A DNA stretch of 64,000 nucleotides from Candidatus Eisenbacteria bacterium (GTDB lineage: Bacteria; Orphanbacterota; Orphanbacteria; Orphanbacterales; Orphanbacteraceae), in NCBI GenBank assembly GCA_016930695.1, contig JAFGGD010000012.1, forward strand, positions 1 to 64,000. Reading direction: 5' to 3'. The first letter of the stretch is position 1. Each line of letters opens with the position of its first letter. The position numbers and the translations under genes were made by a program. This document shows positions 381-56,256 of the stretch, piece by piece. The notes under the pieces are model-generated. The model was not told the DNA's origin. It ran no database searches and saw only the letters and a list, made by a program, of their open reading frames with translations.

Positions 381-471
381 ACCCTCTCCCCACACCATGC
401 CCCGAAGGAAAACCGGGGGCGGCGAAGCCGATGCGGGCCTTCCTCTTTTCCGGCGGTTCTTTCCCTGGGGT

Positions 472-658: not shown

Positions 659-823
659 AGACACCGGCGAATCCAGTGTTGCCCCTTTTCAACACCTTCA
701 TCGCCGGCGCCATTCGCGAACCCGTTTCCCGGGGTCGCAAGCTCTCTGCAGGAGGGCAGAGCTTTCGGGAACTGCAGACTCTCGCGGGGACGATTCTCCG
801 TCCCGTGACCCTACATCATCCGA

Positions 824-1201: not shown

Positions 1202-1216
1202 TCCGAGCCCTTTCCG

Positions 1217-2092: not shown

Positions 2093-2289
2093 CTAGACAC
2101 CTCCCGATGCGGGTTAATCCCGGTAGAACGCAAAGCACGTGCCACTCCATGAGACGGAGAAGAGCCGGGCGTTCCTGGCCGGAGAATCGACCCTAACCTA
2201 CTATTAAACATCAGATTAACGAAAAATGGTCCTTGCGGGGGAGAGAGGAGCGGCGCGATCCTGAGGGTCGCGGGGTGTGTCGAATCACC

Positions 2290-3690: not shown

Positions 3691-3701
3691 GACTGATCGC
3701 C

Positions 3702-4052: not shown

Positions 4053-4082
4053 CGAATGATCGCTCCTGTTCGAGACCGTCCT

Positions 4083-4112
4083 AGTATGGGGACAGGCGGG
4101 GGAGGGTGTCAA
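4083..4112 (-). promoter_or_regulatory. Sigma70-type promoter of the arsR-ntrC pair
   Basis: On the minus strand a perfect TTGACA (4112-4107), an 18-bp spacer and CATACT (4088-4083) are followed by the arsR start at 4052. Placement and spacing fit; transcription start would be near 4076. This is a sequence match only. Confidence 0.6.
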
Positions 4113-4179
4113 CCGTCCCCTATCCGGCGCGGGGCGCGGGGCGCCGGCCGGAAACGAGTTGATCCGCAAGGAATTCCGT

Positions 4180-5499: not shown

Positions 5500-5610
5500 G
5501 TTCGGCCTCCGGGCGGGGAAGGGCGCCTGCATGATTGATGTTTTCACTTTAACACGACTCGAGGAAAACGAACAGGCCGAACAAGCGCCGGGGCAAGAGT
5601 TTTCGCGGGG

Positions 5611-42400: not shown

Positions 42401-44286
42401 TCTCCATGGGCCGCTCCCCGTCGGTCGCCTATCGAAACTGGATCATTCCCGGCTCGGGCGGCCCGAACGGGATGATCGCCCCCTTCTGGGACGACCTGGA
42501 CCAGTCCGGCGGCGGCGCGGTCTACCGGAAGTACGACGCGGCGAACAACCGGTACATCATCGAGTGGAGCCGCATGGAGCAGTGCGACTGGGGGACCGAC
42601 GAGACCTTCGAGCTCATCCTCTACGACCCGGCCCATCACACGACGGACACGAACGACGGGATCATCGTCTTCCAGTACTACGACGTGAACCAGTACGACG
42701 CCTATCCCTACAACGGCTACGCCACCGTCGGGATCGAGAACTTGGACCAGAGCGACGGCCTGCTTTACAGCTATTACAACAAGTACTCCTCCGGCTCTTC
42801 GATTCTCGCCGACGGCCGGGCGATCCGCTTCGTGCCGGTCGCCGCGGGCCCGACGGGAACCCTCACGGGCGACGTCTTCAACGCCTCCAACGGGAACACG
42901 CCGATTCAGGGCGTGCAGGTCCGCCTCGTCGAAAGCGGCCGTTCCTTCTCCTCCGGCTCGGACGGCAAATACGGCGGCATGGTCACCCCCGGCGTCTACA
43001 CGGCGGTGGCGACCCACGCCAGCTTCGATCCGGACACGGTGGAGAACGTGACGATCACCGAAGCGCAGAACACGGACATCGACTTCTATCTGATCGACGT
43101 CGTCGCGCCGGTGCTCGGCGTCACCGCCCACGCCTCCACCGACGACGAAACCGGCCCCTACACCATCCCGGTCACCATCGCCGAGTACTCGGACCTGGCG
43201 CAGAAAACCCTTTACTATCGAACCAACTGGAACGGGAACGCGACGCCGCTGGAGCTGCAGTACCTGACCGGCGACTCCTACGAGGCGGACATCCCGGGGC
43301 AGCCCTACTCGACCATCGTCGAGTACTGGGCCTACGCGCGCGACGCGGTGGGGCTCGAGTCCGTCGATCCCGCCGGCGCTCCGGCGGAGGTCTACCGCTT
43401 CGTCGTGGCGCCCGAGATCACGCTGCTCGACGAAGAATTCGAATCCGCCGGCGATTGGACCGTCGGCGACGTCGATGACGACGCCGCGTCGGGAATCTGG
43501 GTGCGCGAGGCGCCGGTGGGAACGGAGTACAACGGGGAAACGGTGCAACCGTACACGGACCACACCATCGACCCGGGCGAGATCTGCTTCGTCACCGGTA
43601 ACGCCGACTCCGGGCAGAGCGCCGGCACGGCGGACGTGGACGGCGGCAAGACCACCCTCTTCTCCCCCGTCTTCGACCTCTCCGATTACATGACCGCCTC
43701 GGTCGCCTACTGGGTCTGGTACACCAACGACCGGGGGCTCAACCCGGGCGGGGACATCTGGAAGGTGTCGGTGAACGACGGCTCGGGCTGGACCGACTTG
43801 GAGTACACGTCGGCGAGCACCAACGCCTGGGTGCAGCGGAACTTCGTCCTCGAGGAGCACATCGACCTGACCTCCACGGTTCAGTTCCGCTTCGTCGCCT
43901 CCGACGACGGGAGCGGTTCTCTGGTCGAGGCGGCGGTGGACGATTTCCGCCTCTTCGGTTACGTGGACGTGATGACCGGCGTGTCGGAGGGACCCGCGCC
44001 GGAGGCGCGCCGATTCGGCCTCGAGCCGTGCCGCCCCAACCCCTTCAACCCGACCACCACCATCGGCTACTCCCTCGCCGCGCCCGGATCCGTGAAGATC
44101 ACGATCCACGACGTGTCGGGGCGTCTCGTGCGTACGCTGGTGAACGGCCCCGAAACGGCCGGAACGCACCACGCGGTTTGGAACGGCCGGAACGATGAGG
44201 GTATGGGCGTTGCGAGCGGCGTCTACTTCAGCCGCCTCGTCGCCGGCGGTGACCGGGAGACGCGCAAGATGGTGCTGATCCGTTAG
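39460..44286 (+). CDS. Giant C25 (gingipain-like) family surface protein
   Basis: This 1608-residue secreted protein has a signal at 1-24 (GGAGG before the ATG). A propeptide-like N-terminus precedes the C25 domain at about 200-560. Around the active site it reads CSVHGYRGWYYTSGWG and VVMLTCDTGSFAGG: the Cys is kept (Cys464) but Trp436 replaces the dyad His. CARDB/Ig-like domains follow. The ~250-residue module shared with the neighbour (ALPFPFQYYGESYDTITVCS) comes next, then a carboxypeptidase-regulatory-like domain (GTLTGDVFNASNGNTPIQGV). A jelly-roll domain (about 1310-1500) and a FlgD-like sorting tail (RPNPFNPTTTIGYSLA ... SGVYFSRLVAGG) complete it. It is probably an adhesin or protease-derived surface protein. 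Confidence 0.88.
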   Translation: MRRSAHLAFFCLLLTVFPALRTESMQPEPARDAVPTVEVTEESEGVLRLLFEMPLLSEIELEIDGERFRSFSVPGGGFEGEIGGPATPIFTRLIAVPEGARIEARAIVLSEETREGILLAPLQRGDESRESAFDYDEEAYAVRGADSPSASVGETARIRGLRVAPVTFRPVRYDPATRTLRVADRIEVEIVFDGGASKASAADIRPMPPSFDLLLSEAVANYSSPDKSRALPGGHLMICPNNAALVDSLQRLLDWKERKGEPVTLVTTAVTGTTTGAIKSYIQSVYNDDSFNLEYVTLVGDVSGTYAIPCWYETSSGYGGEGDHGYTLLDGTDILADVHIGRLSVSSADEVSRVISKIVNYESAPEMGSTSWFTRACVVGDPSSSGESCVETGRWLADRLLDLGYDDIDTIYTENFVSQMSASITQGCSVHGYRGWYYTSGWGTSNIYTLNNGYKLPYVVMLTCDTGSFAGGTSRSEAWLRAGSGTTTMKGGIGAVGTATIHTHTRYNNCMYYGIWRGILWDGPATMGASLTRGKLEIYNNYYDNEADVAETWAYWNNLMGDPSLDVWTAVPQTLTVTHDASVALGANSIVVEVAAGGTPVRDALVCVRKGSETYERGRTDASGRIELPLNNSSGGAMQITVTKHNHHPYLADVTVDAGGDHLGYLAHTVDDDASGDSQGNGDGNVNAGEAIELPVQLRNYSGATKTSVTAELTSDDPFVTILDGNETWGDIGGGGDDWSDEDFDFQIAPGCPQGHLVQLGLDVSSGASSWHSLIEIPVVSSALETYAVIVVDGGNSRLDPGETANLVVRIENTGESYASNVTGTLSSLSSMVTVGDASGSFGGIDVGAVGICDTDYFTVTADASTYQGYLANFEIVCAFSGGRIDTVPFSITVGAVATSDPTGPDGYGYYAFDDTDAGYPEAPVYSWVELDPSYGGDGTEIVLGDNGTYQDKSVVIALPFPFQYYGESYDTITVCSNGWISMGRSPSVAYRNWIIPGSGGPNGMIAPFWDDLDQSGGGAVYRKYDAANNRYIIEWSRMEQCDWGTDETFELILYDPAHHTTDTNDGIIVFQYYDVNQYDAYPYNGYATVGIENLDQSDGLLYSYYNKYSSGSSILADGRAIRFVPVAAGPTGTLTGDVFNASNGNTPIQGVQVRLVESGRSFSSGSDGKYGGMVTPGVYTAVATHASFDPDTVENVTITEAQNTDIDFYLIDVVAPVLGVTAHASTDDETGPYTIPVTIAEYSDLAQKTLYYRTNWNGNATPLELQYLTGDSYEADIPGQPYSTIVEYWAYARDAVGLESVDPAGAPAEVYRFVVAPEITLLDEEFESAGDWTVGDVDDDAASGIWVREAPVGTEYNGETVQPYTDHTIDPGEICFVTGNADSGQSAGTADVDGGKTTLFSPVFDLSDYMTASVAYWVWYTNDRGLNPGGDIWKVSVNDGSGWTDLEYTSASTNAWVQRNFVLEEHIDLTSTVQFRFVASDDGSGSLVEAAVDDFRLFGYVDVMTGVSEGPAPEARRFGLEPCRPNPFNPTTTIGYSLAAPGSVKITIHDVSGRLVRTLVNGPETAGTHHAVWNGRNDEGMGVASGVYFSRLVAGGDRETRKMVLIR

Positions 44287-44328
44287 AGTTTTTCGTCATA
44301 AGAAAAGGGGGGGACGTCCCCCCACGCG

Positions 44329-44363
44329 AAAGGCCCGGGGTTCACCGCCCCGGGCCTTTTCCT
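44329..44363. terminator. Strong terminator between converging genes
   Basis: A perfect 12-bp stem (AAAGGCCCGGGG at 44329-44340 with 44348-44359) with a seven-base loop ends in TTTT. A C7/G7 hairpin lies just before (about 44307-44323). It serves the plus-strand C25 gene and, through the A-run, probably the minus operon ending at 44384. Confidence 0.88.
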
Positions 44364-44383
44364 CGCGCCGTTACCCGTCCGGA

Positions 44384-45748
44384 TCACCCGCCACCGTTTC
44401 CCTCCAGGATCCGCCGCAGGCTTTCCTCGTCGATCCCGAGGGCGGCCGCCGCGCGCGCCCGGTTCCCCTGGAAGTGGCGAAGCGTCTTCTCCCCGTGTTC
44501 CCGCTCCACCTCCGCGAGAGAACGGGCGTGGAAGGGCTCCTCCTCCGCGCCGCCGGCGAGGATCCGATCCCGGAGATAGGGGGAGAGCGTGTCGACGCCG
44601 ATCCGGTCCCCTTCGGTGTTGATAACCGAAGTGGCGATGATGTCGTGCAGCTCCTGCAGGTTTCCCGGAAAGGCGTAGCCGACGAGCAGGTCGAGCATCC
44701 GCGGCTCGAAGCCCACGATGTTCTTCCTCTGCCGCGCCGCCTCCTGGGCGAGGAAATGCTCCGCAAGAACCGGAATGTCCTCGGCCCTCTCCCGGAGGGG
44801 AATCAGGCGGATGGAGTGCACCATCAGGTGATGGAACAGGTCCGGCGAAAAGGCGTCCCGAAACTGCTCCTCCCCCAGTTCGTGGCAGGAGGCGGCGATG
44901 ATCCGGACGTCGATGGCGTGTGTGCGGGTGCTCGACTCGCGGTAGAACTCCTTCTTCTGCATCACCCGAAGGAGACGGATCTGCACCGGCCGGGGAAGTT
45001 CCTCCACGTTGTTGATGAAGAGGGTCCCCTCGGACGCGCCCTCCAAGAAGCCGGGCCTCACCTCCCTCTCCCCCTTCCAGTCCTCCGCCTGGCCGAAGAA
45101 ATCGGCGGCGAAGCGCTCCGGATCGTGGGCGGCCACGTCCACCGAGACGAGGGGGCCCTTCGCGCGGGGGCTGGCGGCGTGAATCGCGCGCGCCATCGAC
45201 TCCTTCCCCACCCCCCGTTCGCCGAAGATGAACACGTTCAGGTCTCCGGCGGCCATCTTCTCGGCCTGGTGGAAAAGCTGGATCATCGACTCGCTCCGCG
45301 TGGGGAGGTGCGCGAAGGCTTCCTCATGGGCCAGGTCCTCCCGGCGCGGCCGGTCGGGGATCTGGCGGATCGTGGTGCGAAGGGCCCTCTGGGTGATCGC
45401 CTTGTCGAGCACCTCCAGCAGATAGTCGTCCTCCACCGGCTTGGTCAGGTAATCGAAGGCGCCCAGCTTGAGCGCCTTCACCGCCAGGTCCACGTCGTTC
45501 ACGCCGGTGAGCACGATGACCGGCGTCTCCAGCCCTTTGTCGTGCACCAGCTTCAGCACGTCCATGCCGGAGAGCTGGGGCATGTCCATGTCGAGCAGGA
45601 TCGCGTCGAAAACCTCGCGCTCCAACAGGTCGGGAATATCCTTGGAGTTGTTGATGACCGTCGGCTCGTACCGCTCGGTCTGCATCAGGAAGACCATCAG
45701 ATAATTCGTGACGGCCACGTCGTCGTCAGCGATCAGCAGCTTCCTCAT
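44384..45748 (-). CDS. Degenerate NtrC-like response regulator
   Basis: This 454-residue protein has an intact receiver (Asp53 in ILLDMDMPQL, Lys in LTKP), an AAA+ region and a Fis-type helix-turn-helix (RARAAAALGIDEESLRRILE). In the AAA+ part Walker A is GERGVGKE (176-183). The GAFTGA loop that contacts sigma54 is gone (FFGQAEDWKGEREVRPG, 217-233) and Walker B is LFINNVEE in place of LDE. It is therefore unlikely to open sigma54 promoters in the usual way and may act as a DNA-binding switch. It overlaps the preceding kinase gene by 23 nt, which marks the partner. Confidence 0.9.
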   Translation of the reverse strand: MRKLLIADDDVAVTNYLMVFLMQTERYEPTVINNSKDIPDLLEREVFDAILLDMDMPQLSGMDVLKLVHDKGLETPVIVLTGVNDVDLAVKALKLGAFDYLTKPVEDDYLLEVLDKAITQRALRTTIRQIPDRPRREDLAHEEAFAHLPTRSESMIQLFHQAEKMAAGDLNVFIFGERGVGKESMARAIHAASPRAKGPLVSVDVAAHDPERFAADFFGQAEDWKGEREVRPGFLEGASEGTLFINNVEELPRPVQIRLLRVMQKKEFYRESSTRTHAIDVRIIAASCHELGEEQFRDAFSPDLFHHLMVHSIRLIPLRERAEDIPVLAEHFLAQEAARQRKNIVGFEPRMLDLLVGYAFPGNLQELHDIIATSVINTEGDRIGVDTLSPYLRDRILAGGAEEEPFHARSLAEVEREHGEKTLRHFQGNRARAAAALGIDEESLRRILEGNGGG

Positions 45749-47678
45749 CCGTCTTCCCCGCGGCGTCCGCCTTCTTCTTTTTGTACGGAATGCGAATGGT
45801 GAACGTGGTTCCCACGTCCGGCTTGCTGGAGACGGAGATGGATCCCCGGTGCTCCTCGATGATCCGGTAGGCGATGGAGAGGCCGAGGCCGGTCCCTCCC
45901 TTGGCGCGCTTGGTCGTGTAGAAAGGGTCGAAGATCTGGTTCAGCGTGCGCTCGCCCATTCCCTTCCCGTTGTCCTGCACCTCGATCGTGATGAAGTCCT
46001 CGTCCGAACGGGTGATCAGGCGAATCAGGCCGCGCCGGTCCTCGGGCATCGCCTGGCTGGCGTTGATGATCAGGTTGATCAGCACCTGTTCGATCTTCTG
46101 GGCGTTGCCGGTGAAGGTGGGTATCTCCCTCTGCGGCTCCAGTTCGATGTCGGCCGCCTTGTGCACCTGGTTGTGAACGAGCCGGGCGCTCTCGTTGATC
46201 ACCGTGTTCACGTCCACGTTGTCGATCAGGAGCCCTTCGTCCCGCCTGGCGAAACGCTTCAGCCCCTCCACGATCCTCTTGATCCGTTCCGAACCGTTCG
46301 CCATGTCCTGGATGAGGGTCATGATGTGGCTGCGGAAGAAGTCGTACTTCAGGCGGGCCACCTTCAGGTCCGGGTGGCTTTTCTGATATTCGTCCACGAT
46401 GGGAAGGATGTCCTCCATCGCCTGCTGAAAGATCTTGATGTTCCCACGGATGAACTGATTGGGGTTGTTGATCTCGTGACCGATGCCGGAGACGAGCTGT
46501 CCCAACGACGCGAGCTTGTCCGCCTGCTGAAGCTGCTGCTCGTACGTCTTCTTGTAGGTGACGTCCCTGTAGAACTCGATGATGCCGTTCACGTCGTGGT
46601 CCTTCCCGAAGATGGGAAGGGCGTGGACTTCGTAGTAGTTGTCGTCGTGACGGATCTCGAGAGTGATCGGCGCCTTCTCCCGAACGATGCGCGCGAGCCG
46701 GCAGTCCAAGCAGGGGCGATCGCTGTCGAAGAAGGTCTTGTGGCACTTGCTCCCCGGCGGCACCTCCTCCCGATTGGTCATGATCACGTTCCTCTCGCGG
46801 TCGATGATCGCCACCTTGTCGGGGATCGCCTGGAACATCGTTTCCAGGCGGATCTTGGACTCCTCGAAGCCGGTCACCACGCCGTCGAGGTAGGAATTGA
46901 TCTTGTCGAGGTGCCGGCGCTGATTCTCCATCTCCTCCCGCTTGGCGGCGAGGGTGTCGGCCAGTTCCTTCCGGTCCAGCGCGACGCCGAGTATCCGGGT
47001 GATCCCGTTCAGCAGCTTCTGCTCCTCCGGAAGCATCTCCAGGTCCGGCGTGTCGTAGCCCACCACGATCTCGCCCCGGACTTCATTCCCCACCACCAGG
47101 TTGCTCTTGATGGTGAGCCCCTCGGGACGGTCGCCGTACTCCCTGCCGAGGAAGGAAGAGAAGACCGCCACCCGGTCCGGATACTTCATCCCCTCCCGCA
47201 TGAACTCGGGAAACTTCTCGAAGAACTCCGCGACCGAACCGGAGACCTCGATCCACTCCGCCACCGCGTAGAGGCAGGAGAGTTCCTTGATCCGCTCGAC
47301 TTTGTCCCAGTCCGTCATCCCCTCCAAGCCGTCCAACTCGGCGAGGCGATTTCCCCAGAAGAGGTAGAGCACGCCGTCCTCGGTTTCCGCCGAGACCCCC
47401 TTCAGGGGGATCGAGGGGATCCGGTCGCACACCTTCCAGAACGCCACCTCCCGGCTCTCGCTCTCCCGCACCCGGGAGAGAACGCGGCGGAACTCCTCGA
47501 GCGGAGTGGGCGGGAGGATGTCGGCGAGCGTCCGGCCGATCAGGCCGTCCCGGTCGAGCCGGCACTGCCGGGCGAGCATGTTGCTCACGTGGACCACGCG
47601 TTCGCCGTCGTCCAGAACAAGCAGGTAGTCGAAGCTGACGTCGAAGAGGCGGAAGACGTTCTCGGTGGTAATCGCCAT
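45726..47678 (-). CDS. Cytoplasmic PAS histidine kinase with Cys-rich PAS domain
   Basis: This 650-residue kinase has no membrane segments. A PAS domain (about 5-110), a GAF-like region (about 130-232) and a coiled coil (about 235-280) precede a second PAS (about 283-380). That PAS carries Cys312, Cys323 and Cys326 (KCHKTFFDSDRPCLDCRLAR), a pattern seen in redox- or metal-type PAS sensors. The HisKA has His401 in GIGHEINNPNQFI and the HATPase has DNGKGMG and GGTGLGLS. It lies 168 bp after the large flavoprotein gene and overlaps its partner regulator. Redox sensing linked to the neighbouring NAD(P)H complex is inference. Confidence 0.92.
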   Translation of the reverse strand: MAITTENVFRLFDVSFDYLLVLDDGERVVHVSNMLARQCRLDRDGLIGRTLADILPPTPLEEFRRVLSRVRESESREVAFWKVCDRIPSIPLKGVSAETEDGVLYLFWGNRLAELDGLEGMTDWDKVERIKELSCLYAVAEWIEVSGSVAEFFEKFPEFMREGMKYPDRVAVFSSFLGREYGDRPEGLTIKSNLVVGNEVRGEIVVGYDTPDLEMLPEEQKLLNGITRILGVALDRKELADTLAAKREEMENQRRHLDKINSYLDGVVTGFEESKIRLETMFQAIPDKVAIIDRERNVIMTNREEVPPGSKCHKTFFDSDRPCLDCRLARIVREKAPITLEIRHDDNYYEVHALPIFGKDHDVNGIIEFYRDVTYKKTYEQQLQQADKLASLGQLVSGIGHEINNPNQFIRGNIKIFQQAMEDILPIVDEYQKSHPDLKVARLKYDFFRSHIMTLIQDMANGSERIKRIVEGLKRFARRDEGLLIDNVDVNTVINESARLVHNQVHKAADIELEPQREIPTFTGNAQKIEQVLINLIINASQAMPEDRRGLIRLITRSDEDFITIEVQDNGKGMGERTLNQIFDPFYTTKRAKGGTGLGLSIAYRIIEEHRGSISVSSKPDVGTTFTIRIPYKKKKADAAGKTDEEAADR

Positions 47679-47846
47679 GGCGGACTCCAGGGGCGGGCGG
47701 CCGGAGCGGGTTCCGGCGGCCGGTCCGAGGGAGTGGACGGCTGGGAACGCCGGGCGGGGGCGTCCCTTCCCATGCGCCGCCCGGCGGGGCGACGGATCGT
47801 CGACGGGCCGGAGCGGCGGCGCACGGTCCGCCCCGGCCCGATCCCG

Positions 47847-50800
47847 CTAGGCCCGGCGGGCGCCCACGCGGAAGTGCTCCAGCCCCACTTCGTGGACGTC
47901 CCGTTTGTACTGGGCGATCTCGGTGAGCGCCGGCGTCCTCGGGTAGGGCGTGGCGTCCACGTCGGCGATGACCAGCGTCCCTTTCCCGTCCCAGGCGGAG
48001 CGATCACCGTCGCCGAGATAGAAGGGGAGCCTGTCGCCGAGACCCTCGCGCGCCGCCTTCCATAAGGCTCCCTCGATCCTCGGGAACACGGCGGGCACGG
48101 AGACGCCGAGATGATCCGCCAGATTGCGGAGCACGCGCCAACCCTTCATGCCCGAAAGAGGCGCCGCGGCCGGCTGGAACCGGATCGCCCGCCCCTCGAA
48201 GTTCACCCGCGTTCCCTCGCTCTCCAGGTAGGTGCTCCCCGGAATCGCCACGTCCGCGAAGAGGGTCGTCTCGGTCCGCGCCCAATCGACCGCGGCGAGA
48301 AACTCCACGTTCCCCAGATAGGACGCGGTCTTGTTGTATCCCATCGGATCCTCGCCGACGACGAGGGCCGCTCGGATCCGCCCCTCCCGGAGCGCGCGGA
48401 GGAGGTCTTCACGGTTCTTCGCGCCCGGCAGGGCGGGCGCGGGGGCGCGCCCCGCCGCGAAGGCGGGATCGGCGCCGGAAAGCTCCACGCCGGCGCCGTT
48501 CGCCGCCATGGAGGGGAGAATCAGGTCCGCCGGGATTCCCTTCCCGCGGAGGAGGAGGACCAGGTTCGCCAGCGTTTCCACGTCCCCCGGCGCGAGATCC
48601 CGGGAGCGATCCGGGCTGTGGATGACGACGACCCTTCGCGCGTGTAGGACGAGCCGGGCCGCCTCGCGAATCTTCTCCGCCTCCACGCCGCTCCGCTCCG
48701 CCGCCGCGGCGAGGGAGTAATCGTGCGGATCGTCGAGAAAATCGCTTCCGCCCGGCATGGCGCGGATCGCTTCCCGGTCGAGCCATCCTTCATCGATGCC
48801 GAGCTGGATCACGCCGTTCCAGAACGCCGCGGACCTCCCGCGCATCGGGTCGAGGGAGAGCGCCGCCAGGCTGTCCAGCGGGCTCGGCGAGGAGTTGGAG
48901 ACCACGAGCCGGGCGCCCCCCTCCTTCACGGCGCAAACGATCTCGCTGGAGAGGACGGCGTGCTCCGCCTGGGTGTCCGTGTTGTTGCAAAGGATCAGGT
49001 CCGCCTCCCGGAGAACGCTCCGATCCGCGGTGGATCCCGTGAAACCGAAGGAGCGGTCGAGCGTCGCGGCGCGCACCCCGGTTTCCATCAGGGCGATGGA
49101 TCCCACGTTGTTCGTGCCGAGCCCGTCCCGGGCGACGAGGCCGGCCAAGTACAGCTCCTCGTTGGTCAGCTCCGGCGAAACGAAAACGGCGACCGACTCG
49201 GGACCGAAATGTTCCGCCGCGCCGCGCAGACCCTCCACGGCGAGCGCGTAGGCGTCCCGGAAACCCACCGCGCGATGGCGGCTCCCTTCGCGCACCGTCG
49301 GAACGATCAGGCGCCGCCCCTTGATGAAGAGTTCATGACCGAAACGCCCGTACTGGCAGAGATAGTCGCCGGGCTTACCGGAGGATTCGATCCAATACCG
49401 ATCCTCGCTGATCCGCCGGACCGTGATGGGGCAGCCGATGGAGCAGAAGCCGCAGTGGGTCTCCTCCCGCTCCGCCTTGAAGGGAGAACGTCCCGGGAAG
49501 GGGAGCCTCGCCTCGAGCGCGCCGGTGGGGCAGGCGTCGATGCAGTTTCCGCAACTGATGCAGCTGGTCTGCACCAGAGGATCGTTCATCGCCGGCCGCA
49601 TCTCCGTCCGGAACCCCCGGTTCGTCAGGCCGAGCGCGGAGATCGGCAACACACGGTCGCAGGTCCGGATGCAGCGGGCGCAGAGGATACATTTGTTCGG
49701 GTCATAAATAATGTAGGGATGGCGGTCGTCCGTCTTGTGCTTCCGCACCTGGCCGGCGAAGCGCTCCATGTCGACGCCGTACTCCTCGGCGTATTCCCGG
49801 AGCTTGCAGTCGTCGAAGGCGACGCACCCACAGGAGAGGCAACGTTCCTGCTCGTGGATCACGTCCTCCCACTCGAATCCGACCGCGACCTCGCGGAAGT
49901 TCCCCCGGCGCTCCTCCACGTCCAACTCCTGGAGATGGTGGCGCGGGCTCTCGGGGACGTCGCCCAGCTCCACCCGGCCCGGCTTGGACCAGAATTCCTT
50001 GCGGACCGCGAAAGGCTCCGCCGGAAGTTCCTCGCCGGAGAGGAAGGCGTGGATCGCGCGGGCCGCCCGGCCGCCGTCACGGATCGCGTCGATCACCACC
50101 GTGGGGCCGTCGTCCGCGGCGTCGCCGCCGGCGAAGAGACCTTCCACGTTGGTTCGCATGGTTCGGGTATCCACCTCGAAGGTTTTCCACCGCGAGACGC
50201 CCGGAGCCTCCGCCCCCGCCTTCTCCAACAGATCCTCCAGGATCGGTTCCTGGCCGATGGCGGATACGGCGAGACGGCAGGGGAGGTCGAACTCGGAGCC
50301 CTCCAGGGGGACCGGGCGCCGCCGCCCGGAGGCGTCCGGCTCGCCGAGCGTCATCCGGATGCAGCGAAGCGCCTTCAGGCGATTCCCCTCCCGAACGATG
50401 CCGACCGGCGCGGCCAGCTCCAGGATTTCGATCCCCTCCCGGATGCAATCCTCGATCTCCAAAGGATCGGCGGGCATTTCCGCCTTGGTGCGGCGGTAGA
50501 GGAGGATCACCTTCTCCGCGCCGAGGCGCCAGGATGTGCGGGCCACGTCCATCGCCGTGTTTCCGCCGCCGACCACCACCACCGTACCCTCCACCGGCTC
50601 GGGACGGTCCGCTTTCTCGACGAGGAAGTCCGCGCCGGTGACCACGCCCTCGGTGTCGAATTCATGTTCCACCCGCATTCCCTTGCCGCGGAAAGCGCCG
50701 GGCGCGAGAAAAACGGCGTCGTGCTTTTTCCGAAGTTCTTCCAGCGCGACTTCCCCGCCGACGCGAACGCCGGTGCGGATCTCCACGCCGGCGCGGGTGA

Positions 50801-51548
50801 TGAACTCCACCTCCCGGTCGAGAACATCCTTGGGAAGACGGTACTCGGGGATGCCGTATCGGAGCATGCCGCCGGTCTTCTCCATCGCCTCGTAGATGAC
50901 CGCGTCGTACCCCTTTCGCCCGAGAAACCAGGCGGCGGTAAGCCCCGCCGGTCCGCTGCCGACGATACCCACGGTTTTTCCCTTCGAGGGCTCCCTCTCC
51001 GGATTGCCGTTGTAGACGCCGGGCTGATCGGTGACGTGACGCTTCACGAAATTGATGCCCACCGGGGAATCCACGTCCTGCCGGCGGCAGACCACCTCGC
51101 ACTTGCGCACGCAGATCCGCCCGCAGATCGCCGGAAGGGGGTTGGTCTCGCGGATCAGGTCCACCGCCTTGCGGGTTTGCCCCATGGCGGCCAGGGCGAT
51201 ATACCCCTGCGCGTCCACGCCGGCGGGGCAGCCGAGCTTGCAGGGAGAGAGGCAGTCGGCGTAGTGGTTCGAGAGGAGCAGCTCCAGCGCCGTGCGCCGG
51301 GAGCGGATCACGCGTTCGTTTCGCGTGTGAATTTTCATCCCTTCCGCGACGCGGGTGGAGCAGGCGGGAAGCAGGTTCGGCCTCCCCTCCACCTCGACGA
51401 CGCAGACGAAGCAGGAGCCGTAGGGTTTCAGCTCGGGCGAGTGGCAGAGGGTGGGAATCCGGTCCAGCCCGTGCTCCTCCACCACATCGAGAATCGTCCG
51501 ACCCGGTTGGGTCTCGACGGTCCGTCCGTTGATTTCGACCTTCACCAT
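47847..51548 (-). CDS. Multi-domain Fe-S flavoprotein: NuoG-N / GltD-NfnB / NuoG-FdhA-like fusion
   Basis: This 1233-residue soluble oxidoreductase has these parts in order. A [2Fe-2S] domain carries Cys35, 46, 49 and 63. NuoG/GltD-type cysteines lie at 99-107 (HYADCLSPCKLGC). A GltD-type [4Fe-4S] region (141-154, ICGRICVRKCEVVC) leads to FAD loop GSGPAG (197-202), NADPH loop GGGNTA (327-332) and GLFAGGDAADDGP. A Cys-rich linker is at 570-581. Two [4Fe-4S] clusters follow (620-630 and 663-673). A molybdopterin-oxidoreductase-like domain runs from about 697 (Cys699, 702, 706, 731) to the end and contains NFEGRAIRFQ. The site for Cys/Sec is GTNNVGSIALMETG, with neither. With NuoE/NuoF it resembles Stn/HydABC-type NAD(P)H-ferredoxin complexes. 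Activity is inferred. Confidence 0.9.
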   Translation of the reverse strand: MVKVEINGRTVETQPGRTILDVVEEHGLDRIPTLCHSPELKPYGSCFVCVVEVEGRPNLLPACSTRVAEGMKIHTRNERVIRSRRTALELLLSNHYADCLSPCKLGCPAGVDAQGYIALAAMGQTRKAVDLIRETNPLPAICGRICVRKCEVVCRRQDVDSPVGINFVKRHVTDQPGVYNGNPEREPSKGKTVGIVGSGPAGLTAAWFLGRKGYDAVIYEAMEKTGGMLRYGIPEYRLPKDVLDREVEFITRAGVEIRTGVRVGGEVALEELRKKHDAVFLAPGAFRGKGMRVEHEFDTEGVVTGADFLVEKADRPEPVEGTVVVVGGGNTAMDVARTSWRLGAEKVILLYRRTKAEMPADPLEIEDCIREGIEILELAAPVGIVREGNRLKALRCIRMTLGEPDASGRRRPVPLEGSEFDLPCRLAVSAIGQEPILEDLLEKAGAEAPGVSRWKTFEVDTRTMRTNVEGLFAGGDAADDGPTVVIDAIRDGGRAARAIHAFLSGEELPAEPFAVRKEFWSKPGRVELGDVPESPRHHLQELDVEERRGNFREVAVGFEWEDVIHEQERCLSCGCVAFDDCKLREYAEEYGVDMERFAGQVRKHKTDDRHPYIIYDPNKCILCARCIRTCDRVLPISALGLTNRGFRTEMRPAMNDPLVQTSCISCGNCIDACPTGALEARLPFPGRSPFKAEREETHCGFCSIGCPITVRRISEDRYWIESSGKPGDYLCQYGRFGHELFIKGRRLIVPTVREGSRHRAVGFRDAYALAVEGLRGAAEHFGPESVAVFVSPELTNEELYLAGLVARDGLGTNNVGSIALMETGVRAATLDRSFGFTGSTADRSVLREADLILCNNTDTQAEHAVLSSEIVCAVKEGGARLVVSNSSPSPLDSLAALSLDPMRGRSAAFWNGVIQLGIDEGWLDREAIRAMPGGSDFLDDPHDYSLAAAAERSGVEAEKIREAARLVLHARRVVVIHSPDRSRDLAPGDVETLANLVLLLRGKGIPADLILPSMAANGAGVELSGADPAFAAGRAPAPALPGAKNREDLLRALREGRIRAALVVGEDPMGYNKTASYLGNVEFLAAVDWARTETTLFADVAIPGSTYLESEGTRVNFEGRAIRFQPAAAPLSGMKGWRVLRNLADHLGVSVPAVFPRIEGALWKAAREGLGDRLPFYLGDGDRSAWDGKGTLVIADVDATPYPRTPALTEIAQYKRDVHEVGLEHFRVGARRA

Positions 51549-51614
51549 CGTTCTCGTCTCTCCATGCGCGGCCGCCGCCGCGGTACCGGTATGGGCGTCC
51601 GGGACACCGCGGGC

Positions 51615-53393
51615 CTAGTCTTTATAAACCGCGCCGAAAGTACAGGAGGTGATGCACTTCCCGCACTTGACGCAGATCTCGTGATCGATCACGTAGGTCT
51701 TCTTCGGTTCGCCGGCGATGGCGTCGACCGGGCAGTTCTTGGCGCAGAGCCCGCAGCCGACGCACTTCTCCGGATCGATGTTGTAGGTGACGAGCAGCGC
51801 GCAGCTCTTGGCGGGACAACGGTGGTCCCGGATGTGCGCCTCGTACTCGTCCCGGTAATAGCGGATCGTGCTGAGCACCGGGTTCGGGGCGGTCTGGCCG
51901 AGACCGCAGAGGCTCGCCTCCTTGATCCGGCCGCCCAGCTCGCCGAGCTTCTCGATGTCCTCCTCGGTCCCTTCGCCGTTCACGATTCTTTCCAGGATCT
52001 CCAGCATCCGCAGCGTTCCGATCCGACAGAAGGTGCACTTGCCGCAGGACTCCTCCTGCGTGAAATCGAGAAAGAAGCGGGCCATGTCCACCATGCAGGT
52101 GGTGTCGTCCATCACCACCATGCCGCCGGAACCCATGATGGCGCCGGTGGCGGGGATGTGTTCGAAATCGACGGGCGTTTCCTTCAAGTGCGAAGGGATG
52201 CAGCCGCCCGAAGGGCCGCCCATCTGCACCGCCTTGAACTCCCGATCCCCCCGGATGCCGCCGCCGATGTCGAAGAGGATCTCCTCGATGGTCATCCCCA
52301 TGGGCACCTCCACCAACCCGCCGTGGCGGATCTTCCCCGCCAGGGCGAAGACCTTGGTGCCGGGGCTCTTCTCGGTGCCGAAACGGCGGTACGCCGCGGC
52401 GCCGCGGGTGATGATCCAGGGGACGTTGGCGTAGGTTTCCACGTTGTTGTTGTTCGTCGGCTTCCCCCACACGCCCGCTTCGGCCGGGAAGGGGGGTCGG
52501 ATGCGGGGCATCCCCCTCTCCCCCTCGATGGAGGCGAAGAGGGCCGTTTCCTCGCCGCAGACGAAAGCCCCCGCCCCCTGTTTGATGACGATGTCGAAGG
52601 AAAAGCCCGAGCCGAGGATGTTCCCGCCCAGGTATCCCTTCGCCCGGGCGGCGGCGATGGCGATCTCGAGCCGCTTGATGGCGAGAGGGTATTCGGCGCG
52701 GCAGTAGATGAAACCCTTCGACGCGCCGATGGCGCGGGCGCAGACGATCATCCCCTCCAGCACCGCGTGGGGATCCCCCTCCAGGACGGAGCGGTCCATG
52801 AAGGCGCCGGGGTCCCCCTCGTCGGCGTTGCAGATCACGTATTTCACGTCCGAATCGTAACCGGCGGCGAAAGACCACTTCAGGCCGGTGGGAAAACCGG
52901 CGCCGCCGCGCCCGCGGAGGCCGGATTCTTTCATCTCCGAAAGGATCTCCTCGGGCTTCATCTCCAAGAGCGCCTTCCGGGTCGCCTCGTATCCGCCCGC
53001 CGCCTCGTAGTCCTCGATCCTCTCCGGGTTGATCACGCCACAGTTGCGGAGAACGATCCTCTCCTGCCGGGCGAGGAAATTGCTCTCCGCGCCGGAGGGC
53101 TCCTTCCCCTCCTCGACACGGTACACGAGGTACTCCTCGAGGACCTCGCCCCCCTTCACGTGGCGCTCGACGATCTCCTCCGCCCGCGTGGGGTCCACGT
53201 CGCCGTAGATGGTGCGGGAGCCGTTCTCCCGGATCTCCACCAGCGGCTCCCGATAACACATGCCGATACAGCCGGTGTAGGTGAGTTCCGTCCCGGCGCC
53301 GCTCGCGCCGAGGATCTCCTCCAACCGCCGGTACACGTCCCGAGCCCCCGCGGACATGCCGCAGGTGCTCATGCCGACCAGGATCTTACACAT
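51615..53393 (-). CDS. NuoF/HydB-like NADH-binding flavoprotein subunit
   Basis: This 592-residue subunit starts with a thioredoxin-like [2Fe-2S] domain (CGMSAGARDVY, YTGCIGMC). The NuoF core has the NADH/FMN loop GLRGRGGAGFPTGLKW, NADEGDPGAFMDRSVLEGDP, FVCGEETALFASIEG and the [4Fe-4S] site EESCGKCTFCRIGT. Two C-terminal ferredoxin clusters follow (CVGCGLCAKNCPVDA; CVKCGKCITSCTFG). This is the HydB/HndC layout of soluble multi-subunit NADH-linked complexes, not the shorter respiratory NuoF. The ATG at 53393 is preceded by GGAG eight bases upstream; a GTG nine bases earlier is possible. The 66-bp gap to the fusion protein indicates one transcript. Confidence 0.95.
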   Translation of the reverse strand: MCKILVGMSTCGMSAGARDVYRRLEEILGASGAGTELTYTGCIGMCYREPLVEIRENGSRTIYGDVDPTRAEEIVERHVKGGEVLEEYLVYRVEEGKEPSGAESNFLARQERIVLRNCGVINPERIEDYEAAGGYEATRKALLEMKPEEILSEMKESGLRGRGGAGFPTGLKWSFAAGYDSDVKYVICNADEGDPGAFMDRSVLEGDPHAVLEGMIVCARAIGASKGFIYCRAEYPLAIKRLEIAIAAARAKGYLGGNILGSGFSFDIVIKQGAGAFVCGEETALFASIEGERGMPRIRPPFPAEAGVWGKPTNNNNVETYANVPWIITRGAAAYRRFGTEKSPGTKVFALAGKIRHGGLVEVPMGMTIEEILFDIGGGIRGDREFKAVQMGGPSGGCIPSHLKETPVDFEHIPATGAIMGSGGMVVMDDTTCMVDMARFFLDFTQEESCGKCTFCRIGTLRMLEILERIVNGEGTEEDIEKLGELGGRIKEASLCGLGQTAPNPVLSTIRYYRDEYEAHIRDHRCPAKSCALLVTYNIDPEKCVGCGLCAKNCPVDAIAGEPKKTYVIDHEICVKCGKCITSCTFGAVYKD

Positions 53394-53508
53394 CGGGTCC
53401 ACTCCGTGCCGTTCACCGATGCTCGATGAAGAGAGAAGCCGTGATTTCGGGGAAGGGCGGTTTCCCGAGCCCTCCCAGCGAACAGCCGGGGTACGGGGTC
53501 GCCGCGGC

Positions 53509-54015
53509 TCAGGCGCCGGCCGCCGCGGTTTCCCCGGCGGTCTTCTTCCGCTCCTCGCGGCGGATCGTTTTCAGGATCTTGCGAGCCGAGGCCGGGGTCA
53601 GCTTGCCGTAGGTTTCGTCGTTGACCATCATCACGGGGGCGAGGGAACAGCAGCCGATACAGGCGACGGTGGAAAGCGTGAAGGCGCCGTCCTCGGTGGT
53701 CCCGTTCACCTCGACGCCCAGCTCGTCCTGGATCGTCTGCAGCAAGGTCTGCGCCCCCGCCACGTGGCAGGCGGTTCCGCAGCAGAGACGGACCACGTGC
53801 CGGCCCATCGGTTGGAGGCGGAACTGGCTGTAGAAGGTGATCACCCCGTAGATCTTCGACTCGGGGATTTTGGTGACCCCGGAGATGTACTGAATGGCGC
53901 GCCGGGGGATGTAACCGAAATGGTCCTGCGCCGATTGCAGAAGCGGGATCAGCTCGCCGGGGGCGCCGTCGTACCGCCAAAGGTGATAGCTGAAATCCGA
54001 TTCCGGATGAGACAT
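53509..54015 (-). CDS. NuoE/HydC-like [2Fe-2S] subunit
   Basis: This 168-residue thioredoxin-fold subunit has the family blocks ELIPLLQSAQDHFGYIPRRA, KIYGVITFYSQFRLQP and the four cluster ligands in CCGTACHVAGA and VACIGCCSLAP. By family it passes electrons in NADH-linked complexes together with NuoF. It is the first redox subunit in the cluster, 115 bp ahead of the NuoF-like gene and 126 bp after the regulator. The Ala/Lys tail is not conserved. Confidence 0.95.
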   Translation of the reverse strand: MSHPESDFSYHLWRYDGAPGELIPLLQSAQDHFGYIPRRAIQYISGVTKIPESKIYGVITFYSQFRLQPMGRHVVRLCCGTACHVAGAQTLLQTIQDELGVEVNGTTEDGAFTLSTVACIGCCSLAPVMMVNDETYGKLTPASARKILKTIRREERKKTAGETAAAGA

Positions 54016-54141
54016 GGTTCGTTCTCGTCCTTTCGCCGCCGGCCGGGCGGACCGCGCGCCGCGCGTTCTCTCCCGTTTCCGGCGGCCGTTTCGGTCGGTC
54101 CCGGCGCGCGGGCGGCGCGCCGTCCGGGGGGGACGGCCGCT

Positions 54142-55131
54142 TTAGAAATCGAGCAATTTAATGATCTTCGCTTCCTTCACCCGAAGCACGCCGTCGATCT
54201 GGCTCAGGCGCTCCACGATGCGGGGCGTCTTCCCGAAGGCGCCCTTCTCGGAGATGATGCCGATCAGCTTAGAGCCGCCGTCGATGATGTCGCAGAGAAA
54301 AACTTCATCGAGAAAGAAAAAGGTCGTGAAGACTTGCTGGATCGACTCCCGATCGATGTCCACGATCACGTAGGAGCGGGTGCCGGAGAGGCTGGGCATT
54401 TTCTCGAGATCCGCCTCTTTCACCGCTTTGCGGTAGACCTCGATGAAATCGCCCACGTCTCGATCGAGCTTGGGACGCTCCACTCGGGAGAGAGAGACCG
54501 CCTCCACGCCCTTCACGGACGCCACCCGATCGTAGAGGGTCTTCATCTCTTCTTCCGATCCCGCCTGGAGCAGCAGAATGATATCCACGTCGCCGCGGAC
54601 CGCGTCGCAGGAGGCGATTCCCTCCATCCGGTAGAGTTCGCCGTAGATCTCCATGTCTCGGTCCGGCTCGGTGATCCGGAGCGTCACGTAGCCGCTCATG
54701 GTCTCCCGGATCTCTCCCTCCGCCGCGTCCTCCTTGGCCGGCAGGGCGGTGGTGCTTCCCGGAGTCAGCTCGCCGAGCGCCTTCACCAGATCGGAGATTT
54801 CAAAGGGTTTGTCGAGGAAACCCGTGTTGAGTTCCGCAAGCGCGGTCTGCTCGAGCATCTCGTTGCCGAAGCCGGTGATGACCAGCACGGGCAGATCCGG
54901 GAACTCGGCCTTGATCACCTTCAGGATCTTGAGACCGTCGATGTCGGGCATGAAGATGTCCGTGATCAGGTAGCCGTACCCGATCCCCTTCTCCCGCGAC
55001 GCGTGCAACTCGTGGATCGCGGAAATTCCGTCCGGGCAGGCGGTGCAAGTGAACCCCTCCTGGGTCAGACCCACCGTCAGGTTCCGGCGGATTTCCGCCT
55101 CATCGTCGATGATCAGTACTCTTCGACTCAC
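54142..55131 (-). CDS. Response regulator with tandem Lrp/ACT-like domains
   Basis: This 329-residue protein has a receiver at 1-120 (DDE acidic pair, LITDIFMPDIDG phosphoacceptor, Lys in FLDKP). Two Lrp/AsnC RAM-like (ACT) modules follow. One at about 145-220 reads VTLRITEPDRDMEIYGELYR, then MEGIASCDAVRGDVDIILLL. The other at about 247-325 reads SYVIVDIDRESIQQVFTTFF, then QIDGVLRVKEAKIIKLL. No helix-turn-helix is visible, so it may work by protein contact or ligand binding. The GTG at 55131 has GGAGG seven bases upstream. It is the first gene after a strong promoter and leads the NuoE/NuoF/flavoprotein cluster. Confidence 0.85.
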   Translation of the reverse strand: MSRRVLIIDDEAEIRRNLTVGLTQEGFTCTACPDGISAIHELHASREKGIGYGYLITDIFMPDIDGLKILKVIKAEFPDLPVLVITGFGNEMLEQTALAELNTGFLDKPFEISDLVKALGELTPGSTTALPAKEDAAEGEIRETMSGYVTLRITEPDRDMEIYGELYRMEGIASCDAVRGDVDIILLLQAGSEEEMKTLYDRVASVKGVEAVSLSRVERPKLDRDVGDFIEVYRKAVKEADLEKMPSLSGTRSYVIVDIDRESIQQVFTTFFFLDEVFLCDIIDGGSKLIGIISEKGAFGKTPRIVERLSQIDGVLRVKEAKIIKLLDF

Positions 55132-55315
55132 CGGTTTCCTCCTCGTGACGGCGGCATGGCGCCGGCGTTACGGAGACGACTCGTTTCGATCGCACCCCGC
55201 GCTCGGGCGGGTGCGCTCCTTGAGCGGCCCGGGAATTCCGGGGTTGACGGGGCGCCAAGGGGAAAGGCGCGGCGGGACGTGCCGCACCGGACAACGGACG
55301 TGTATCGAGTTCTTA

Positions 55316-55347
55316 ATTCTAGAGGGGGTGGTCGGTTGAGGTCAACC
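55316..55347 (-). promoter_or_regulatory. Promoter with overlapping palindromic operator for the redox cluster
   Basis: On the minus strand TTGACC (55345-55340), 18 bp and TAGAAT (55321-55316, five of six consensus bases) form a good promoter. The -35 box lies inside the palindrome GGTTGA-GG-TCAACC (55334-55347), a candidate operator. The leader to the GTG at 55131 is about 175 nt. The rest of the 387-bp gap 55132-55518 shows only a weak plus-strand promoter candidate, TTTACA-N17-TACCTT (55410-55438). Confidence 0.6.
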
Positions 55348-55518
55348 CGAACCGTGCCTCGATCCGCCGGCGGGCGGGCGGATTAAGCGCGGCGGGGCCG
55401 TCACCCGTCTTTACATTTCGGGGTCACCGCGCTACCTTTGGCGCGGTTCCCGGGGGGCCGGACGGCGGGAGTCCGACCCGGGCGTTTCGGCAAGCGCCTA
55501 CCGAGGGGAGGTCGGTCG

Positions 55519-56256
55519 ATGCGAGAGCAAAAGGGAATGAGGGGCGGACGGCGCGCCGGAGCGGGCGGCCGCCTTCAAGGACGTTTGGGGCTCTCCGGCG
55601 TCTTCCTTCTCGTCGGCCTGGCGATCTTCATCGGGTGCGCCGAGGCGGCCCTCGCGGTGGAACAGGCCGGACCACCGGTCCGGATGGAGCAAACGGAACC
55701 GACCCCGGAAACGGCGGAGATCCCCGCGCGAACGAACAGGGCGTTTTATGGCCTCGCCGGCGTTCTCACTCTCTTTCTCATCTTTCAAGCCTATTTGGGC
55801 CTCTCGGGTCGGAAATGTAGGATCGAGAGGATCGCGGGGCTCCTGGACGCCGCGGCGGACGAACTCGATTTCTATCGAACACGGCTCGGGCGGATCGAAG
55901 GGGAAATCGGCGCCGCGCTGGAGGGTCCACCCGGCGCGCTGGGCGATCTGAACCCGGCCTGCCCCTTCCGGCCCGAATTCCTGGAACGCCTCCGGATCGA
56001 AGCCGCCCTGGACGGAGGAGACCGGAAGGCGGTTCGGGAGTTGGGGGAATGCCACTTCGAACTGAGCCTGATCGGCCGGGACATGGAACGCCTCGGCGGG
56101 GATGGAAATCACTCCCAAGAGGAGTGGCGCCGTCTGCGGGAACGTTTAGAGACGACGCGGCGCCGCCTCCAAAGAACCGGAGGGCGCATCGAGGAACTCG
56201 CCGGGCGGCACCGCTCCCGCCTCCACAGAATCCACTACCGAATCGCCCGAAGCTGA
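55519..56256 (+). CDS. Unknown membrane protein with C-terminal helical domain
   Basis: This 245-residue protein has two hydrophobic helices (about 25-47, GVFLLVGLAIFIGCAEAALA, and about 77-97, FYGLAGVLTLFLIFQAYLGL). A charged helical C-terminus (about 100-245) rich in Glu/Arg is probably coiled coil (EEWRRLRERLETTRRRLQR). The ATG at 55519 has GGGAGGT seven bases upstream. No family was recognised. It stands alone between the redox cluster and the EEP-family gene. The helical part resembles a cytoplasmic docking domain; that is inference. Confidence 0.68.
   Translation: MREQKGMRGGRRAGAGGRLQGRLGLSGVFLLVGLAIFIGCAEAALAVEQAGPPVRMEQTEPTPETAEIPARTNRAFYGLAGVLTLFLIFQAYLGLSGRKCRIERIAGLLDAAADELDFYRTRLGRIEGEIGAALEGPPGALGDLNPACPFRPEFLERLRIEAALDGGDRKAVRELGECHFELSLIGRDMERLGGDGNHSQEEWRRLRERLETTRRRLQRTGGRIEELAGRHRSRLHRIHYRIARS

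Follow-up and report, generated by a model that had tools for sequence, protein, structure and literature searches.

Organization of the gene block

Within the window (the whole stretch of 64,000 nucleotides that was analysed), six open reading frames on the minus strand are found at the positions, and with the domains, that an earlier note on this DNA had given them. In order of reading, they encode a REC-RAM-RAM response regulator (RR-RAM), the subunits StnA, StnB and StnC of what is, by family, an electron-bifurcating enzyme, a histidine kinase and an NtrC-like regulator. The genes are separated by gaps of 126, 106, 66 and 168 bp, followed by a 23-nt overlap of the last two; the second gap had been given as 115 bp, which applies when the ATG at 53393 is taken as the start of StnB, and the other spacings stand. 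The promoter-like site TTGACC-18-TAGAAT (55316..55345, minus strand), located 185 bp before the first gene, is the sole sigma-70-like match in 44200-55600. The earlier description of a strong promoter is thus retained as to the presence of a site, whereas "strong" denotes a consensus match, because 0.7 such sites are expected by chance. The terminator-like hairpin ∼60 bp beyond the last gene (44308..44323, minus strand; consensus match) counts as weak evidence, because the scan of both strands returned 18 such hairpins against 7.6 expected, several of them inside genes. No Rfam RNA element reaches its gathering score in 44000-56000.

The Stn-type transhydrogenase

By family, stnA, stnB and the giant stnC encode an Stn-type (Nfn-Bfu) electron-bifurcating NADPH/NAD+/ferredoxin transhydrogenase, which supports the earlier proposal of an NADPH/NAD(H)/ferredoxin complex; the enzyme itself is of an already known kind. 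The stnA gene (53509..54015, minus strand) specifies the NuoE-like [2Fe-2S] subunit (PF01257, 173.6 bits) and stnB (51615..53402, minus strand) the NuoF/HydB-like FMN, NAD and ferredoxin subunit, that is, the bifurcating module. The best PDB match of StnB is S. ovata StnB (8oh5_B, 867 bits) and its motif CNADEGDPG is present in 47/47 relatives scored. StnC (47847..51548, minus strand), the probable site of NADPH entry, has the domain string NuoG-N/GltD/NuoG-FdhF that together with the gene trio identifies the Stn/Nfn-Bfu type. The giant NuoG-N/GltD/NuoG-FdhA fusion reported previously does contain these domains but is not new, being collinear with 9bov_A over residues 1-1149 (776 bits) and with S. 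ovata StnC (8oh5_C, 692 bits) over 2-868 and 1051-1152.

Each of the 27 cysteine positions tested in StnC is kept in 21/21 relatives; together with Lys169 they would provide the ligands for one [2Fe-2S] and six [4Fe-4S] clusters, the cluster numbers and diagnostic residues being those given in the available text of PMC10482914 and the Cys-to-cluster assignment our own. Lys169 (K170 of S. ovata, as counted on the alignment to 8oh5_C), the ligand of the FAD-proximal cluster that in Stn is lysine and not glutamate, is likewise present in 21/21 relatives, and the genome's own NfnB has by eye a glutamate in the corresponding motif. The alternative S. ovata ligand Cys114, not treated here as defining Stn because it is reported for one species, is alanine in the window StnC and cysteine in only 3 of the 21 relatives. 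At the position that we take to be the active site of the FdhF-like domain, neither a catalytic Cys nor Sec is found across the 21 relatives.

The present proteins have in common with S. ovata StnABC (PDB 8oh5, 8oh9; available text of PMC7483475 and PMC10482914) the three subunits, the domain string, the cluster cysteines, the Lys ligand and the inactive FdhF domain; comparison by eye of the aligned parts of StnC and StnB with S. ovata gives no clear clade-specific insertion marking a docking site. BfuABC ("Nfn-Bfu"; available text of PMC9304861) shares the BfuBC-type bifurcating module and an NADPH-feeding, BfuA-like subunit. As a separate observation, tblastn located Nfn-like stretches upstream in further loci (e.g., L041, L050) that our gene calling had missed, hence the Nfn count over loci is a lower bound.

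The receiver protein RR-RAM

The first gene of the block (54142..55131, minus strand) encodes a receiver domain (Pfam Response_reg, 75.6 bits) and a RAM domain (AsnC_trans_reg, PF01037; 26.2 bits at a cut-off of 25), and these are the only Pfam domains above cut-off; no DNA-binding domain is recognised among them. The REC domain is 78% identical over 42 sequences, with D58, T86 and K108 invariant in 42/42. The C-terminal half was modelled alone because structural matches of the full-length model were dominated by REC, and in the AF2 models both C-terminal domains are predicted to adopt a beta-alpha-beta-beta-alpha-beta order. The predicted fold resembles the RAM domain of Lrp/AsnC proteins and the siroheme decarboxylase NirDL, with Z 12.8 to PH1519 (77 residues; domain 1) and Z 13.3 to NirDL (158 residues, rmsd 3.1), and a profile match to stand-alone RAM proteins is obtained (E 7.6e-7). 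For domain 2 the fold is a prediction on which the structural matches, NirDL excepted, barely bear; Pfam gives no match to it in 5/5 fragments and a weak profile match points to the PH0140 RAM (E 0.0042). The former label of an Lrp/ACT response regulator is accurate in joining REC to an Lrp-type RAM, and is to be amended to two RAM-like domains, the second by prediction and weak profile match. A distant relative (32% identity, L074) adjoins a PAS kinase on a 7.3-kb contig in which no stn gene was detected; the architecture as such is thus not inherently tied to Stn.

The histidine kinase and the NtrC-like regulator

The kinase (45726..47678, minus strand; HATPase_c 94.4 bits, PAS_4 49.2 bits) lacks a strongly hydrophobic 19-residue stretch (maximum mean 1.04) and appears to be soluble. 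It comprises PAS, GAF-like (by eye) and three-Cys PAS regions and has the HATPase boxes and phospho-acceptor His401 of histidine kinases; H401, C135, C312, C323 and C326 are invariant in 28/28 sequences. Scanning the DNA of the fetched loci for the three-Cys motif, which is not a fair background, gave 34 matches, 32 of them in these kinases and two in frames with stops. The sensor region has a single weak PAS match in the PDB (E 7.7e-4). The idea of a kinase that monitors the activity of its complex is a conjecture; no electron-transfer domain was recognised in the protein, the domains identified in its sensor part being of PAS type and one of them having three invariant Cys. Apparent StnC-kinase fusions in L034, L056 and L061 were rejected, the long open reading frames being other-frame or upstream read-through in GC-rich DNA.

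The last gene (44384..45748, minus strand; Sigma54_activat 133.2 bits) encodes an NtrC-family regulator that has lost the sigma-54 contact loop. Neither the exact GAFTGA nor the relaxed G[AS][FY]TG occurs in any of 23 NtrC-like sequences, whereas five other NtrC-type genes in the loci, themselves without the exact GAFTGA, read GAYTG or GSFTG in 5/5. The Walker B Asp-Glu is retained in 3/23 relatives (Asn-Asn in the window protein) compared to 5/5 control genes, and AAA+ output is for this reason doubtful. The receiver Asp53 is conserved in 23/23. HTH_8 is matched at 28.6 bits in the window protein, and conservation within the protein is lowest in the Fis region (40% mean identity), whose last helix is often acidic by eye. 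A missing sigma-54 as the cause of the lost loop is ruled out, since the genome has rpoN. HupR-type relatives of NtrC, which operate without sigma-54, have the NtrC domain string and no usable GAFTGA loop; in the window protein, Walker B and HTH are eroded as well.

Recurrence and co-occurrence across genomes

StnC was the only query used to select loci. The contig scan gave 57 loci, of which 56 enter the synteny counts (L063, not of the clade, was left out); distant Stn loci are under-sampled because the scan was pattern based, and it was supplemented by searching whole genomes of three phylum groups. The gene order recurs, the test named in the earlier note: RR-RAM precedes stnA in 42/42 loci where the available sequence extends far enough (at least 1.2 kb). 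A kinase gene follows stn in 28/37 loci with at least 2.5 kb of sequence and in 18/23 with at least 9 kb; among the 32 loci with kinase, 20 have it on the same strand within 200 bp of stnC, 11 have it farther away and one (L012) has it on the opposite strand. The kinase and NtrC-like genes occur together in 27 of these 32 loci and usually lie downstream of stnC.

Recurrence across phyla is real as to at least three phylum-level groups (its own and the phyla of genomes G018 and G016) but patchy and clade-bound, the set being present in 1/7 genomes available for its own phylum. RR-RAM has exactly one match at E≤1e-30 in 16/20 genomes, and in the other four the contig with stn breaks off inside stnA/stnB or immediately ahead of them. 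In 80 genomes of the G018 phylum, clade StnC was found in 34, RR-RAM in 35 and both in 32 (8 of up to 33 first-look candidates scored per genome); the two share one contig in 27/32, the remaining 5 being genomes whose StnC contig stops inside the stn genes. In 198 genomes sampled from the G016 phylum, clade StnC and RR-RAM occur in the identical 2 genomes (11 of up to 36 first-look candidates scored per genome; 3 in a second search). Absences in these searches have moderate weight, because only part of the first-look candidates was scored. Kinase orthologues are present, unlinked cases included, in 10/13 clade genomes and NtrC-like ones in 9/13, each against 0/14 others; the 3 and 4 clade genomes in which they were not found are drafts. 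The cassette tracks a single Stn clade; searches of genomes with diverged Stn complexes did not find it.

Over 16 shared loci, the mean pairwise identity is 75% for StnA, 74% for StnB, 69% for RR-RAM, 63% for StnC, 59% for the kinase and 56% for the NtrC-like protein. Distances correlate with those of StnC at 0.77 (RR-RAM), 0.73 (kinase) and 0.74 (NtrC-like), above the best of 500 permutations (0.61, 0.59 and 0.46, respectively); StnA-StnB (0.56, permutation best 0.61) does not exceed its permutations.

Proposed mechanism and alternatives

The block is tentatively understood, with confidence a little short of even, as an Stn transhydrogenase accompanied by a dedicated two-component cassette in which the kinase signals, RR-RAM gates Stn and the NtrC-like protein is a second output. 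The two signalling systems previously proposed have their proteins present, but are better read as one kinase with two receivers of unusual output. NADPH would be oxidised at StnC, and the StnB FMN would split the electrons to NAD+ and ferredoxin, reversibly. With its PAS, GAF-like and three-Cys PAS regions, the kinase may monitor the redox state of the cytoplasm or its metabolite status, and it would phosphorylate both RR-RAM and the NtrC-like protein encoded just after it, the latter a second output presumably unable to open sigma-54 promoters. The main action of RR-RAM would be to bind and gate the Stn complex, and its RAM pair may bind a small metabolite as second input. Direct action of RR-RAM is favoured because its gene stays beside stnA while the kinase and NtrC-like genes move, and because its identity is above that of StnC, kinase and NtrC-like protein, though below that of StnA and StnB. 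Just as well, RR-RAM might sense a metabolite and act on something other than Stn, or its effect might be directed back at the kinase.

A possible analogue, likened to RR-RAM by gene position and domain content, is Rv3143/MSMEG_2064. According to the available text of PMC9274095, Rv3143 is an orphan REC protein encoded near nuo that binds NuoD and is a proposed modulator of Nuo, comparable to the gating of Stn suggested here; the two have in common a REC without DNA-binding domain, location near an NADH-oxidising complex and co-occurrence with one clade. Unlike RR-RAM, Rv3143 is a single REC without the RAM pair and belongs to a different complex, and it was not phosphorylated by the kinases tested there. 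The HydABC genes of the host genome (L066) likewise have signalling genes around a bifurcating enzyme, here a hydrogenase, since a kinase gene precedes them and a gene for a REC-only protein follows; they differ in having the [FeFe] hydrogenase HydA instead of StnC, and no RAM domains or NtrC-like partner were seen beside them.

A rather less probable alternative is transcriptional feedback, whereby the phosphorylated NtrC-like protein would bind DNA through its Fis-type HTH and control stn from a sigma-70 promoter in the manner of HupR-like relatives of NtrC, leaving RR-RAM as phosphate sink or effector sensor. The pairing of kinase and NtrC-like genes, the HTH_8 match and the sigma-70-like site are consistent with it, as is the word AAGTCAA (TTGACTT on the other strand), found in 19/42 upstream regions against 1.1 expected, many of these loci being close relatives. 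The poorly conserved, often acidic Fis region and the eroded Walker B argue against it, and 7-mer counting upstream of the loci revealed no clear shared operator, mainly ribosome-binding-site-like and -35-like words being prominent. That RR-RAM is primarily a small-molecule sensor (its RAM pair binding ligands in the manner of Lrp/AsnC, or a tetrapyrrole like NirDL) which informs the kinase, with Stn only one target, we consider improbable: the fold and profile matches agree with such a role, but no conserved ligand site was identified in RR-RAM, and its adjacency to stnA and single copy per genome where found favour an Stn-specific one. Mere hitchhiking of the cassette with stn on horizontally moved DNA would fit the patchy distribution and is very unlikely in view of a gene order kept among proteins ∼50-75% identical, of kinase and NtrC-like genes that persist in clade genomes even unlinked and were not found in the 14 non-clade genomes, and of the distance correlations with StnC, even if StnA-StnB stayed below its best permutation. 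A formate dehydrogenase or complex-I fragment, as the NuoE/F/G and FdhA profile matches might suggest, is scarcely credible for a StnC with the Stn-type lysine in its GltD domain and no Cys or Sec at the placed active site, whose S. ovata homologue shows no formate oxidation (available text of PMC7483475).

Significance

In agreement with the earlier note, no described system with this exact gene set, and no paper describing a partner cassette of Stn, was found in the literature searched. The term "histidine kinase" is absent from the main texts of PMC7483475 and PMC10482914 (term counts), so that these describe no such cassette for S. ovata Stn; both it and "two-component" are absent from the main text of PMC9304861, a figure legend of which mentions regulatory genes in plain text.

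The arrangement suggests that Stn activity is switched by a dedicated signal. In a more specific and more doubtful version of the gating mechanism, RR-RAM would dock on StnABC under the joint control of phosphorylation and metabolite, so that a two-component signal would immediately, and with no transcriptional step, determine how electrons are exchanged among NADPH, NADH and ferredoxin; the NtrC-like protein, formerly a sigma-54 activator, would similarly have become a different kind of switch. To our knowledge, it is poorly understood how anaerobes control which way, and how fast, flavin-based electron bifurcation runs. A signalling cassette that is conserved and specific to one clade, and in which one receiver gene keeps its place next to stnA, offers a direct and testable entry to this control and, if the proposal is true, the reach of two-component signalling in several uncultured groups would extend beyond transcription to the regulation of a redox enzyme complex.

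Results

The block running from 55131 to 44384 on the minus strand resolves, by ORF and domain search of the window, into six genes in the order response regulator, NuoE-like, NuoF/HydB-like, 1233-aa fusion, histidine kinase and NtrC-family regulator. The combined redox and signalling set that the earlier note described is upheld, all six genes being present with domains assigned. A promoter scan of 11.4 kb gave a single sigma-70-like site, 185 bp 5' of the first gene (0.7 expected), and a terminator-like hairpin lies immediately 3' of the last gene, in a scan that over-reports such hairpins here (18 rows compared to 7.6 expected); both elements fit a single operon, short of proof. A 1608-aa ORF on the plus strand (39460-44286), by eye peptidase-like and secreted, converges on the block.

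The fusion protein (StnC) aligns along most of its length with solved complexes of the Stn type, the Sporomusa-type bifurcating NADPH/NAD+/ferredoxin transhydrogenase (9bov_A, 776 bits; 8oh5_C, 692 bits; 9n5u_A, 568 bits), and the top match of the NuoF/HydB-like protein (StnB) is S. ovata StnB (867 bits). Features of S. ovata Stn described in PMC10482914 served as yardstick, with residue equivalence taken from our reading of the StnC alignment. On this basis, 21/21 relatives tested have every one of 27 StnC cysteines, Lys169 (K170 of S. ovata) and Arg237 (R239), the StnB loop CNADEGDPG is present in 47/47 relatives scored, and the StnC relatives' alignment places no Cys or Sec at the FdhF-domain active site as we positioned it. 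Structure matches, conserved residues and FdhF site together identify the redox core, at the level of sequence, as a bifurcating transhydrogenase of Stn, or Nfn-Bfu, type, whose activity would follow from family membership. Identity in every detail is argued against by the alternative ligand Cys114 of S. ovata, a position at which only 3/21 StnC relatives have Cys. The enzyme itself is already known.

Two other gene clusters of the same genome belong to this context. One on contig C30 (157001-172000; locus positions 2-6823) parallels the stn cassette: its HydABC [FeFe]-hydrogenase genes are preceded by a GAF-type kinase gene and followed by one for a REC-only protein. The other, on contig C5 (L067, 4015-13973), has NuoF-like, NuoG/FdhA-like, NfnA-like, NfnB-like, Fe-hydrogenase-like and DRTGG genes and is likely a further bifurcating cluster; its NfnB has Glu in the motif corresponding to StnC Lys169.

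With StnC as the sole query, 57 loci were collected and 56 counted. The response regulator, a REC-RAM-RAM protein (RR-RAM), lies 5' of stnA in 42/42 loci having at least 1.2 kb there, one of them (L022) carrying a diverged copy of 35% identity. Where at least 2.5 kb is available 3' of the stn genes, the kinase is found there in 28/37 loci; where at least 9 kb is available, in 18/23. Among all 32 loci having a kinase, the gene lies no more than 200 bp from stnC, in the same orientation, in 20, is more distant in 11 and on the opposite strand in 1; the NtrC-like gene is also present in 27. For four of the five longest loci without linked kinase (L048, L054, L057 and L059), the genome carries an orthologue at another site, as two partial matches in the case of L057; a search of the genome of L062 found none. 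Of 34 loci with enough sequence 5' of RR-RAM, at least 14 (L014, L016-L019, L021, L023, L024, L027, L031, L032, L047, L051 and L054) have both NfnA and NfnB directly before RR-RAM-StnABC on the same strand; one of the two is seen there in L048 and L057, and L034 has the pair on the opposite strand.

In the own phylum group, StnC of the window's branch (clade StnC) and RR-RAM occur in one of seven genomes, the remaining six having neither at the thresholds used. Among 80 genomes of the phylum of G018, clade StnC (matches of at least 498 bits by our reading of the table, eight genomes with diverged StnC excluded) is found in 34, RR-RAM in 35 and both in 32. The two share one contig in 27 of these 32, and in the other five (G015, G038, G053, G057, G060) the StnC contig stops inside the stn genes. 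Both StnC-only genomes (G048 and G074, loci L053 and L009) have contigs stopping short of the RR-RAM position; of the three with RR-RAM only, the contig of G037 runs through stnA and stops early in stnB, that of G071 stops within RR-RAM, and the sole copy in G100 is a distant relative. RR-RAM was found in 0/8 diverged-StnC genomes of this phylum, and the diverged StnABC loci L068 (14 kb) and L069 (9 kb) contain no cassette-like gene. Among 198 genomes sampled from the phylum of G016, whose locus L034 carries the label Elusimicrobia, clade StnC and RR-RAM occur in the same two, and three further genomes have diverged StnC with no RR-RAM found. Orthologues were detected in 10/13 clade genomes versus 0/14 others for the kinase (E≤1e-90) and in 9/13 versus 0/14 for the NtrC-like protein (E≤1e-100). 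Because the whole-genome searches scored part of the first-look candidates, absences carry only moderate weight. Some of the loci come from MAGs that their depositors labelled Spirochaetales, Acidobacteria/Aminicenantes, Spartobacteria or Deltaproteobacteria.

The RR-RAM receiver is intact (Asp58, Thr86 and Lys108 invariant, 42/42). Its C-terminal part is predicted as two beta-alpha-beta-beta-alpha-beta domains (mean pLDDT 83.7), a pair that superposes on the siroheme decarboxylase NirDL (Z 13.3, 158 residues). Profile and predicted fold assign the first as a RAM domain; the second gives a weak profile match (E 0.0042) and no Pfam match. A distant REC-RAM-RAM relative of 32% identity (L074:3069-4124) adjoins a divergently transcribed PAS kinase on a 7.3-kb contig in which no stn gene was found. 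The sensor region of the stn-linked kinase consists of a PAS domain, a GAF-like stretch (by eye only) with one invariant Cys, and a PAS domain with three more. Cys motifs of similar type are common in the PAS domains of kinases, and we know of no agreed ligand for them. Since a hydrophobicity check revealed no strongly hydrophobic stretch, the kinase is probably soluble.

Discussion

In the open-licence literature on Stn, bifurcating complexes and two-component systems, no description of Stn together with this signalling cassette was found among the matches listed, nor any paper on RAM-type response regulators; the term 'histidine kinase' is absent from the main text of three overviews of bifurcating enzymes and hydrogenases. 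Where Nfn and Stn genes are neighbours, two different bifurcating transhydrogenases appear, as judged from their genes, to be united in one gene block.

RR-RAM adjoins stnA wherever the contig extends far enough, while the kinase and NtrC-like genes do relocate. It is single-copy where found (16/20 genomes, the other 4 having cut contigs), has no recognised DNA-binding domain and, with a mean identity of 69% over the same 16 loci, is better conserved than StnC (63%), kinase (59%) and NtrC-like protein (56%), StnA and StnB being at 75% and 74%. These features suggest that RR-RAM may be a partner of the Stn complex rather than a transcription factor.

The main rival reading, which we consider somewhat less likely, is that the NtrC-like protein controls transcription without sigma-54. 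This protein retains an intact receiver and, in 19/23 sequences, Walker A; the Walker B Asp-Glu is kept in just 3/23 and the GAFTGA-type loop, relaxed form included, in 0/23; among five further NtrC-type genes of these loci, the relaxed form is present in 5/5 and the exact string in 0/5. Conservation within the NtrC-like protein is lowest in the C-terminal HTH, and the own genome encodes sigma-54. The NtrC-like profile also matches another gene of this genome (338 bits), at C30:72220-73524 and distant from stn. The proposal of the earlier note, in which the Stn complex would signal its activity to the kinase, is a possible, unsupported reading.

Direct gating of Stn by RR-RAM is tentatively favoured, at slightly less than an even chance, because the conservation and position of RR-RAM meet a precedent in Rv3143, a REC protein encoded close to an NADH-oxidising complex and, according to PMC9274095, binding that complex. 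Binding is a feature of Rv3143; by analogy, RR-RAM would act on the transhydrogenase itself.
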